Assembly: GCA_025363015.1 (NCBI GenBank)
Contig: JANYEQ010000035.1
Span: 1-64,000 of the forward strand
Origin: Bacteroidota bacterium
GTDB taxonomy: Bacteria; Bacteroidota; Bacteroidia; B-17B0; Aurantibacillaceae
Direction: 5' to 3'
Length of the DNA: 64,000 bases
Under the pieces are notes generated by a model. The model was not told the DNA's origin. It saw nothing but the letters and a program-made list of their open reading frames with translations, and did not search any database. Position 1 is the stretch's first letter, and each line of letters begins with the position of its first letter. Of this stretch, positions 25,288 to 28,993 are shown one piece after another. The position numbers and the translations under genes were made by a program.

Positions 25288-27360
25288 ATGCAAAAATTAT
25301 TTATTTTTTTAATGTTAGCAGTTTGCGGTAGTGTTAAAAGCCAAACGCTAAACATTCCGCCACGTTTAGCGTCCTATATGACAGGTACTCAATTTACTGC
25401 TGCTATTGCGCCGCTTAGTTTTACAGCCCGCGAAAATTTAATTTATAACGAATTTATAAAAGGTAATGTACCTAATTTTTTACGTACGTTAACACCAGTA
25501 ACATCTACCGCCATTATTAGTAGCAGTTTGCAAAGCGTTACGTATTATGTTATACCTGATTATATAGCTATTGGAAGTGATATTGATTATTTTTTATGCC
25601 CTATGTCGCCTATTATTGCTACAAAAATAGCCGATAGTATTGGTTGCACTTTACCCACTCGTAAAATGGTAAATGATATTTATGCCCAAGCGAATTTAAC
25701 GTTAACACCACTAACAATATCAGCAAGTGGCACTATGACAACCGTTCAAGCCTTTGCGCAACACAATAATATGGTGGGCTCGCAACGCAGTAGTTTTACA
25801 AATACATTAGGTACGGCAACTAGTGGTGATAAAAAAGATGTAATTATTTCTAATCAAATTTATACAACCTCTAATCGCGTTATAATTTACGGTTGGCATA
25901 CTTCGGTTGGTAATCCTATTCAACCGCTTACCAATGTTCATGCCGATACTTACATGGATTACAGCCATGGTATTAGATTGGTACAAAACGCTATATTATA
26001 TAATGGTAATCCTACCACTATAAAAAACATGTTACAATCGTCAACATTAAATACTTTATTGAGTGATGAGGGTGTGATTGCTCAGCCTTATTACCCTTAT
26101 TTTACACCAGTTGGTAGTTTAAGCACACCAATATCTTTTGCAGTTGTTAATAAAGTAAATAATAGCATCGAAATAAAAGTTAAAAATGATAATAATGCCA
26201 CTCATTATAAAATTTATACAAGCACTAACGGCACAGTATTTAACCCACCTGTTACACAATTAAAAACAAATTTAATTTTATCGCCAACTGTAGGGCAAAT
26301 TTGTTATATAAAAATTGCAGCATACAATACTACTTATTCCATTACCTCTAATATTTCAGAAGTTCTGGCTGCAGTACCCTGCAACTATCAAGATAGTGTT
26401 TTAATAGTAAACGGTTTTGATAGAACGATAACAGGTAATACATATGATTTTATTCGTCAGCATGGCTCGTCAATAAAAAATTGTAATAAAAACTTTTCTT
26501 CGGCTACTAACGAAGCCATACAAGATGGTCTTATAAATTTAGCAACTTACAAAGCTGTTGATTGGCTGTTGGGCAAAGAAAGTACGGCTAACCAAACCTT
26601 TAATAGTAGTGAGCAAATTTTGGTTCAAAACTATTTAAAACAAGGCGGTAATTTTTTTACAAGTGGTTCTGAAATTGGGTGGGATTTGGATAACAGTGGT
26701 ACAACAACCGATAAGGCATTTTATAATAATTATTTAAAAGCAAGTTATGTGGCCGATTCGCCCAATAACCAAGCTAGCACTTGGTATAAAACATTAAATG
26801 AAACTACTGCTAGTATTTTTAATTTTAATGATACTACTACTTTTGATAATGGAAGTAATGGAATCTATAATGTAGATTATCCAGATGTAATAAACTCTTT
26901 AAATGGAAGTATAGCTACCTTGCGTTATACAAATGCCACAACAAGTAAATCAGCTATTTATTTTTCTGGATTATTTAGTGGTGGCACTAGCAATGGCAAA
27001 TTGGTATATTTCGGGTTTCCGTTTGAAACAATTTATCCTGCTACTAAACGTAATAGTATGATGAATGATATTTTAAATTTCTTTTTTGTTAGCACTATTG
27101 TTACCGAATTTTTGGCTAATACTAAAACTAACGAAATTTTAATCTACCCAAACCCATGCACAGATATAGTTACTATACATTCTACCCAACCCATTATTAA
27201 ATGGGAGTTAACAGATATAACAGGAAAATTAATTTTCGAAAAAACAATAAATTCTGTTATCGAAACTATTGATGTCAATCAATTTATTAATGGGGTTTAC
27301 TTTTTAAAAGTACAACAAGAGAAAGATATTTTTGTGAGAAAAATTACGATTATTCATTAG
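25288..27360 (+). CDS. Exported protein with type A T9SS C-terminal sorting domain
   Basis: Signal peptide; C-terminal IYPNPCTDIVTIHS...WELTDITGKLIFEK...GVYFLKVQ. Confidence 0.85.
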   Translation: MQKLFIFLMLAVCGSVKSQTLNIPPRLASYMTGTQFTAAIAPLSFTARENLIYNEFIKGNVPNFLRTLTPVTSTAIISSSLQSVTYYVIPDYIAIGSDIDYFLCPMSPIIATKIADSIGCTLPTRKMVNDIYAQANLTLTPLTISASGTMTTVQAFAQHNNMVGSQRSSFTNTLGTATSGDKKDVIISNQIYTTSNRVIIYGWHTSVGNPIQPLTNVHADTYMDYSHGIRLVQNAILYNGNPTTIKNMLQSSTLNTLLSDEGVIAQPYYPYFTPVGSLSTPISFAVVNKVNNSIEIKVKNDNNATHYKIYTSTNGTVFNPPVTQLKTNLILSPTVGQICYIKIAAYNTTYSITSNISEVLAAVPCNYQDSVLIVNGFDRTITGNTYDFIRQHGSSIKNCNKNFSSATNEAIQDGLINLATYKAVDWLLGKESTANQTFNSSEQILVQNYLKQGGNFFTSGSEIGWDLDNSGTTTDKAFYNNYLKASYVADSPNNQASTWYKTLNETTASIFNFNDTTTFDNGSNGIYNVDYPDVINSLNGSIATLRYTNATTSKSAIYFSGLFSGGTSNGKLVYFGFPFETIYPATKRNSMMNDILNFFFVSTIVTEFLANTKTNEILIYPNPCTDIVTIHSTQPIIKWELTDITGKLIFEKTINSVIETIDVNQFINGVYFLKVQQEKDIFVRKITIIH

Positions 27361-27388
27361 TTATGCCCCATTTATGCACACAAGACAA

Positions 27389-28075
27389 ATGAAAAGACTT
27401 CTACTATATATCTCGACTTTTCTTGTCGCCTGCTCTCCTTTGACAAACGTCAGATTCTTAAAATTTCCTCCGAGTGACTTCCGCATCAATAACAATATAT
27501 TGAAAACTAACGGCTATTATTATTGTGAAAAACAAACGACACGATACTGTAGACGCATACCTTCTAATCACATTGCAGACACTGCTTCGAAATTTAATGA
27601 ACGATATATCAGTGCTTTCTTTTTATTTAATGATGGGTATGCGTATCATACAGGCGGTTTAATTATCGCTGGCGTAAATAGACCTGGATTTTATAGTTCA
27701 TATGACTATTGTGACAATTTAGCCGAATTCAATACTTTCAAATCTGCTCGAGAAGTTTTCGAAGATCATTTGAGTAAAAACTATGTTGGTAGAAACTCAC
27801 TCCACGACAAAGGAGTGTTTCACTTACAGCGTGACACAATTCATTTCCAAATATACCAAAGTGGTTCACATTCGCTAGTTTTGACGGAACATTTCGGAAT
27901 TATTCTTAACGACACAACATTCCGACTAATTAAAACAATAAGACATCAAAACACTTTTCCTAAGACCAAACCAATCGTTAATAATCTAGATGACCTTTAT
28001 CAGTTTAAAAGTCATAATCGTAAGGCCGACTCGACAAATTACTTACGCGACAATAGGATCAAAATCGAAAAATAA
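27389..28075 (+). CDS. Cassette-borne hypothetical lipoprotein
   Basis: MKRLLLYISTFLVACSP lipobox (alternative start 27374); composition differs from neighbours. Confidence 0.75.
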   Translation: MKRLLLYISTFLVACSPLTNVRFLKFPPSDFRINNNILKTNGYYYCEKQTTRYCRRIPSNHIADTASKFNERYISAFFLFNDGYAYHTGGLIIAGVNRPGFYSSYDYCDNLAEFNTFKSAREVFEDHLSKNYVGRNSLHDKGVFHLQRDTIHFQIYQSGSHSLVLTEHFGIILNDTTFRLIKTIRHQNTFPKTKPIVNNLDDLYQFKSHNRKADSTNYLRDNRIKIEK

Positions 28076-28079
28076 ACGA

Positions 28080-28261
28080 GGCATAACACGGGGCAATTGC
28101 GTCAGCGGGTTTGACGGGTATTTTTTTACTTTGCTTTTGCCCCTTTTGGACTTTTATTTTCATAAAGCAAAAAAGAAAATGTTTTGTATATTTAAATTTA
28201 GTTTTCGGTTGGTAGACGGTTTAACGGTTTTTATACCCGCCGAATGCAAGCCCCGAAAACG
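28080..28261 (+). repeat. attC-like recombination site
   Basis: GGCATAAC..CGGGGC(AA)TTGC..GCGGGT pairs with ACCCGC..GCAA-GCCCCG..CG plus TTATGCC from cassette 5' end. Confidence 0.65.
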
Positions 28262-28993
28262 TTAGCTAAAAAAATAACCTCTTATTTTTATATTATTTTT
28301 AAAATAATTCCAAACAGAATCTTCAGTTACCGGAAAGGTAGTTACCGAAATTGGCTCTAATTTTATAGGATGTACAAAATTTAGTTTATAGCTGTGTAAG
28401 TGAATAAAGCCTCCATCATTTGTCCGATTAAATCCATATTTTAAATCGCCTTTAATGGGGCAACCAATAGCACTTAATTGGCAACGTATTTGATGATGTC
28501 TACCGGTATGTAAATCTACTTTTAGCAAATGATAATTATCGCTGCTGGCAATTAATTCATAATCTAATTCTGCCCTTAAACCGTTTTCTACAGGTTTAAA
28601 AAAGGCTTTACTCATATTTGTTTTTTCGTTTTTTATAAGGTAATGAACAAGTTTGTCTTTTAGTTTTGCGGGTTTATTTTTAACAACGGCTAAGTAGGTT
28701 TTAGTAATTGTTTTTTCTCTAAATAATTCGTTAAAACGCGTTAAGGCTTTGCTTGTTTTTGCAAAAATAATTAAACCGCTTACGGGCCTGTCTAATCGAT
28801 GAATTACTCCACAAAATACGTTGCCAGGTTTTAAATCACGATTTTTTAAAAAGGTTTTAATTTTTTCGCTTAAAGGTATATCGCCTGTTTTATCACCTTG
28901 CACTAACTCGCCAGGTAACTTATTAATGATGATAATGTGATTATCTTCATAAACAATTTGTTGTTCTAAAATTGTATCCTTTTTAATTTCCAC
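28262..28993 (-). CDS. RluA-family pseudouridine synthase
   Basis: VIHRLDRPVSGLIIFAKTSKALTRFNELF; LHTGRHHQIRCQLSAIGCPIKGDLKYG. Confidence 0.93.
   Translation of the reverse strand: MEIKKDTILEQQIVYEDNHIIIINKLPGELVQGDKTGDIPLSEKIKTFLKNRDLKPGNVFCGVIHRLDRPVSGLIIFAKTSKALTRFNELFREKTITKTYLAVVKNKPAKLKDKLVHYLIKNEKTNMSKAFFKPVENGLRAELDYELIASSDNYHLLKVDLHTGRHHQIRCQLSAIGCPIKGDLKYGFNRTNDGGFIHLHSYKLNFVHPIKLEPISVTTFPVTEDSVWNYFKNNIKIRGYFFS

Follow-up and report, generated by a model that had tools for sequence, protein, structure and literature searches.

A solitary integron gene cassette in a Bacteroidota genome and a candidate integron platform whose tyrosine recombinase lacks I2

Positions 27361-28261 of the window (the whole 64-kb stretch of DNA that was analysed) hold what is, judged by its sequence, a solitary integron gene cassette of the SALIN/CALIN type. 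With a probability of roughly 85%, we consider that a single-gene circle released from a cassette array was inserted here at a chance GTT, most likely by a tyrosine recombinase encoded on another contig of the same genome (C112), an enzyme without the I2 insert of canonical integron integrases (IntI).

Results

A gene cassette between two convergent genes

The unit (+ strand, TTATGCC... to ...GAAAACG) completely fills the gap between a gene for a 690-aa protein with a T9SS sorting domain (25288-27360, + strand), which ends at the left junction, and a convergent RNA pseudouridine synthase gene of RluA type (28262-28993, - strand), whose stop codon abuts the right junction. The stop codon TAG of the T9SS gene occupies 27358-27360 and the left boundary, G/TTATGCC (a slash marks each junction), falls at 27360/27361, inside a putative secondary, attG-like site, ATTATTCATTAG/TTATGCC (27346-27367, + strand). 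The right boundary, ..CCCCGAAAACG/TTAGCT, falls at 28261/28262, where the stop of the minus-strand synthase gene (TTA) takes up 28262-28264.

Between these junctions lies a single ORF of 233 aa (27374-28075, + strand), a predicted lipoprotein on the strength of MKRLLLYISTFLVACS, read from an in-frame ATG at 27389 (lipobox judged by eye); it returned zero matches in searches of Pfam and PADLOC. The R'' box, GGCATAAC (28080-28087, + strand), begins 4 nt past the end of the ORF and opens the attC site. Its L'' arm, CGGGGC-AA-TTGCG-TCA-GCGGG (28089-28109, + strand), and L' arm, CCCGC-CGAA-TGCAA-GCCCCG (28235-28256, + strand), are unequal and leave bases unpaired (AA faces nothing, TCA faces CGAA), and the central spacer is unpairable. 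The R' core, G/TTAG, is at 28261-28265. At the other end of the unit, GTTATGCC, composed of the preceding G and the first cassette bases, is the exact 8-nt complement of GGCATAAC, which is about 720 bp away, and, as in integrons, it takes excision of the circle to make R'' and R' of this cassette complementary. The unit thus consists of what defines an integron cassette, a single gene and an attC with R'', L'', L' and R' boxes. These bases, boundaries, ORF stop and R'' complement had been described in an earlier note made from the sequence alone, and were found again base for base. Plain folding of the 193-nt attC stretch gave no unusual stability (z of 0.12 and -0.55), the site standing out because its arms are conserved and not because of its thermodynamic fold.

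attC sites in the genome and its relatives

A covariance model (R1) was built from 14 attC sites from relatives and from contig C135 of the same genome, with the window copy excluded. Searched against the 64-kb window, it matched 28080-28268 (+ strand) at 121.5 bits (E 3.8e-24), a score that is not purely structural since the training sites come from close relatives with shared primary sequence; the second-best match had an E of 4.1, leaving one attC in the window. In the same-genus genome G060, homology to the window cassette on two contigs starts exactly at window base 27360 and is directly preceded by the attC end of another cassette, ...TGTGCAAAACG/TTATGCCCC and ...GCTTGGAAAACG/TTATGCCCC. 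Both contigs stop 109 bp into the homologous cassette, the identical boundary being seen for the left end; on the right side, similarity to the attC of a further relative (G013) spans 28068-28265. Together, the R1 match and the junction-exact homology in G060 indicate a real integron cassette, alone at a secondary site. The earlier note's reading of the unit as a cassette with these two ends is borne out by both lines of comparison, as is its solitary state, the integrase-type matches of the genome including none on the window's contig. The note had also proposed the covariance search, with the result given above, and a search for further attC copies, which returned many.

At E<=0.01, R1 detected nine attC sites in the genome, two each on C31 and C127. 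Apart from the window's own, all lie no more than a few kb from the end of a contig, which is where breaks of the assembly at repeat arrays would leave them. Matches were also found in 99 of 150 relatives, some of them in dense rows such as the seven within 7 kb on contig C186 of G030. Contig C135 holds another cassette of the genome, which starts with GTTAGCAGCC and carries its R'', GGCTGCTAAC, about 2.2 kb on, an exact 10-nt complement. A third BLAST match, on C101, was considered as a further attC and rejected as a partial match at a housekeeping locus.

The array end on C127 (L265:489-2250), beside ribosomal protein genes, holds a two-gene cassette for what by eye are a MarR-type regulator and a serine hydrolase of beta-lactamase fold. 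Two arrays with no integrase close by, at L004:850-905 (C135) and on the reverse strand of L264 at 2800-2847 (C107), have the same start of about 45 bp, TACTTACAATTRTTTA..ACTWTACAAAGCCATTAG/TTA, unlike the integrase-linked attI; from its sequence, this start may be either what is left of a duplicated attI or an additional attachment site that has no integrase.

A tyrosine recombinase family without I2

With no integrase in the window, the earlier note had supposed that one elsewhere, or one since lost, was used. An integrase elsewhere is borne out: contig C112 carries the gene for a tyrosine recombinase of 386 aa, together with an attI and a first cassette. The enzyme is I2-less, which the note had not anticipated, and a search of the genome for canonical IntI (TIGR02249 above its cut-off of 265 bits) found none. 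The same search of the 150 relatives, likewise suggested in the note, yielded canonical IntI once, in the family member G084, an assembly with 6% contamination. Homologues of the C112 recombinase, by comparison, were present in 93 of the 150.

Against TIGR02249 the C112 recombinase scored 209 bits (cut-off 265), in a split match that left profile positions 180-237 unmatched. Its best NCBIfam equivalog was NF040815, barely above cut-off (221.8 vs 220 bits), and it fell below the XerC and XerD equivalog cut-offs (185 and 194 vs 335 and 330 bits), to which the separate XerC- and XerD-type genes of the genome came closer at 301 and 328 bits, likewise just below. The top PDB sequence matches of the family were 5hxy and 4a8e, the sequence-nearest structures being XerA and IntI. 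In a joint alignment, the stretch from the KGxKDR strand to the H-x-x-R-H region contained an insert in 15 of 15 IntI and in 0 of 42 family members, and alignment to the IntI4 structure (2a3v) left chain residues 181-242 unmatched by the family. The lack of this defining feature sets the enzyme apart from IntI, even though the anatomy is that of an integron.

A tree was computed without the insert columns and with five Xer rows, which are long. IntI formed a single clade (100/100) on a long branch, and the family grouped with IntI apart from the five Xer rows (100/97), lying outside IntI as its sister or in a basal position. The tree fits an ancestral as well as a derived origin of the family. 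Most members are also extended at the N terminus by a domain of some 80 residues in which two Trp are near-invariant; AlphaFold models this domain well, as bbabbab (mean pLDDT 86), and a comparison with PDB folds gave nothing below E 0.4. Assignment of this domain to HARP (SMARCAL1-type) was dropped, the Pfam matches being weak and confined to five of 39 members (best E 0.0043). The Acinetobacter plasmid recombinase TnpF (~265 aa) shares 45% identity with the catalytic part of the family (plasmid matches H8-H25).

In a sample of 300 genomes from the phylum, canonical IntI was detected in 87, and among the carriers listed one (G182) belongs to the window's class. The two kinds of integrase seem to share out the phylum between them in this sample. 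Integron surveys have reported almost no integrons in Bacteroidetes (PMC9024848). Surveys requiring the IntI domain would overlook a large pool of cassettes.

attI sites and cassette arrays beside the recombinase

Many family genes lie close to a contig end (100-400 bp away), which their 3' side faces. The window's genome is itself a draft of 143 contigs in which C112 breaks off some 80 bp inside the first cassette, so that its own array is broken and no contig joins the integrase to a complete cassette. An attI-like site is conserved 3' of the integrase stop, usually at 92-105 nt in about 50 loci and at 169 nt in this genome. The consensus, CGCATATAAACAAG/TTA followed by a cassette start, was seen in this genome, where it reads TTTATGGCGCGTATATACTAG/TTATAACC, and in most other loci. 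Integrase transcription in family loci points toward the array.

Thirty-four loci in which 1000 nt or more follow the attI motif were testable for cassette structure, and an exact 8-nt complement of the first cassette start was found 100-2500 nt downstream in 22 and was missing in 12, compared with 3.1% when the cores of other loci were used and 1/34 in an upstream window. These 22 R'' boxes were chosen regardless of any hairpin, and in 12 of them an L''/L' stem of at least 6 bp ended just before GTT, vs 4.9% at other TAAC; most of the remaining ten had one-mismatch stems by eye. Chains of 5, 4, 3 and 3 cassettes in the same orientation were found at L127, L154, L129 (Flavobacterium limicola DSM 15094) and L164. 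Arrays are present in Flavobacterium isolates and in many Bacteroidota MAGs, and the same pattern occurs in a single-contig genome (G001). Across the 150 relatives, integrase and attC matches occurred together in 74, integrase only in 19, attC only in 25 and neither in 32 (p 1.4e-5, ignoring kinship). From this arrangement the platform is, as far as sequence can tell, an integron by anatomy, without the defining feature of IntI.

Some loci have other genes directly 3' of the integrase in place of attI. By eye, this is an ORF6N/KilA-type gene in G070, G019 and G082, the ORF (at L106, L108 and L122) carrying ..LPDEVVLNKIYLLREEK..; in G034 (L110) a toxin-antitoxin-like gene (HigB-like ORF, by eye) lies immediately behind the integrase. 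Homologues of the integrase were also observed on two Chryseobacterium plasmids, one with a run of same-strand genes behind it. On the plasmid of Chryseobacterium sp. SNU WT5 (L205) the run includes a group II intron reverse transcriptase, and a perfect inverted repeat follows the attI; group IIC introns are known for targeting attC sites.

A palindrome before the integrase gene

The palindrome CTAY-N5-RTAG was found 30-50 nt 5' of the start codon in 13 of 16 integrase genes of the same family (L121, L077, L076, L078, L084, L086, L089, L094, L095, L082, L102, L103 and L101), reading CTATAATTTGTAG in the window's genome and CTACAAATTGTAG at L103. It has the 4-5-4 layout of the Bacteroidetes SOS boxes CTAA-N5-TTAG and TTAC-AAATT-GTAA (PMC8565304), and this likeness in sequence suggests DNA-damage control of the integrase. 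No such box was seen before dinB, a repressor or another evident SOS gene when about 1.1 Mb of the genome was inspected by eye.

Discussion

Insertion site and proposed mechanism

An attI weight matrix ranks the window target, CGATTATTCATTAG/TTA, in the top 1% of the window's GTT sites, at 7.0 bits vs 22.4 bits for the genome's own attI; this low score fits an off-target, attG-like insertion. Compared for the cassette-free allele that the earlier note had asked for, the locus was not syntenic in the 29 relatives in which the RluA-type gene was located, neither the T9SS gene nor ArgS being adjacent to it.

In the home platform of this integrase, its gene is followed at about 100-170 bp by attI and then by the attC cassettes, and is transcribed in their direction. 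A cassette circle would be formed by attC x attC exchange and would join attI, or occasionally another GTT site, cassettes being joined at AG/TTA. In the window, such a circle would have entered the end of the T9SS gene, between G and TT of a chance site that contains GTT, with the I2-less integrase as probable catalyst, the folded bottom strand as probable substrate and a site other than attI as target.

Insertion by a canonical IntI from a visiting or lost element, with the I2-less recombinase a bystander beside the arrays, would be compatible with the general anatomy of attC, and IntI is common in the other classes of the phylum (87/300), with one in G084. We nevertheless judge it quite improbable, since 99 of 150 relatives have attC matches while IntI occurs in a single one with 6% contamination, meaning that the arrays live without IntI, and since attI-like DNA and a cassette start lie at a near-fixed distance behind the I2-less gene. 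A palindrome-ended element of another sort (IS200/IS605-type, REP or MITE), or chance, might be invoked for a palindrome that adjoins one ORF with no integrase nearby, but is refuted for practical purposes by the junction-exact homology with array cassettes, the attC model match and the existence of arrays in which the genes vary and the ends stay constant. Insertion by the C112 recombinase is our preferred explanation, against which we count the 25 of 150 relatives with attC matches and no detected integrase, the 12 of 34 loci that lack the 8-nt complement, the broken array on C112, the poor score of the window target as attI and the share of primary sequence in the R1 score.

How this enzyme would handle attC is a separate matter. 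It might act on double-stranded attC, or on a hairpin with two-strand exchange, as XerCD does with CTXphi, given that I2, to which the block on exchange of the second strand is ascribed (PMC4792948, PMC7790495), is absent here, and that XerA stands beside IntI among the structures nearest in sequence. The unequal attC arms, unpaired bases and unpairable spacer are, on the contrary, the marks which steer IntI to one folded strand, and the R''/R' complementarity is of the integron kind in being restricted to the excised circle, hence we regard the two-strand route as rather unlikely. Because the unequal unpaired bases have been kept in the attC arms, recombination of a folded single strand is our first guess over ordinary double-strand exchange, at about two to one.

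An integrase that may never have had I2

IntI1 is inactive once I2 is deleted, and both I2 and the recombination of single strands are described as exclusive to integron integrases (PMC7790495). For the same group, how I2 and attC arose together is a chicken-and-egg problem, to which functional intermediates would be the solution (PMC4792948). We tentatively propose, at somewhat less than even confidence, that the cassette-capture integrase of Bacteroidota never had I2, either as a pre-I2 survivor using attC hairpins or as an enzyme whose N-terminal domain provided a separate solution to single-strand hairpin recombination. In either form, if true, this would overturn the view of I2 as what made integrons possible. 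Searches of the open-licence PMC literature turned up no report of I2-less integrons, a scope that leaves priority uncertain. With attC and attI served by an apparently I2-less integrase in Flavobacterium that can be cultured, the problem of the origin of I2 and attC becomes testable.

Comparison with known systems

The platform shares with IntI integrons a tyrosine recombinase gene, an adjacent attI, head-to-tail attC cassettes, the G/TT core and R'/R'' complementarity in the circle. The protein tail of the family, (I/V)SPFDxL, also resembles the SPLDxL of IntI, and the tree groups the two apart from Xer. It differs from IntI integrons in that no member examined has I2, an additional N-terminal domain is present in most, integrase transcription runs toward the array and the family falls outside the IntI clade. 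XerA and NF040815 are likewise close, as the top PDB sequence matches and the best equivalog match of the family. Xer enzymes have a role in chromosome dimer resolution and, to our knowledge, have no attI or attC array.

The integrons of Treponema and other Spirochaetota are alike in the transcription of the integrase toward attI, along the direction of the cassettes (PMC3607928, PMC9668308), but carry IntI, whose specific additional domain is regarded as a defining character (PMC9668308). Finally, a solitary cassette is by itself a known kind of thing. According to a citing article, cassette insertion at attG sites has been described for IntI1 (Loot et al. 2024, Nat Microbiol 9:228, cited in PMC12901181), and as portrayed there CALIN/attG insertions resemble the window cassette in lying off-platform at a divergent GTT site, and differ from it in that the enzyme available here is not IntI.
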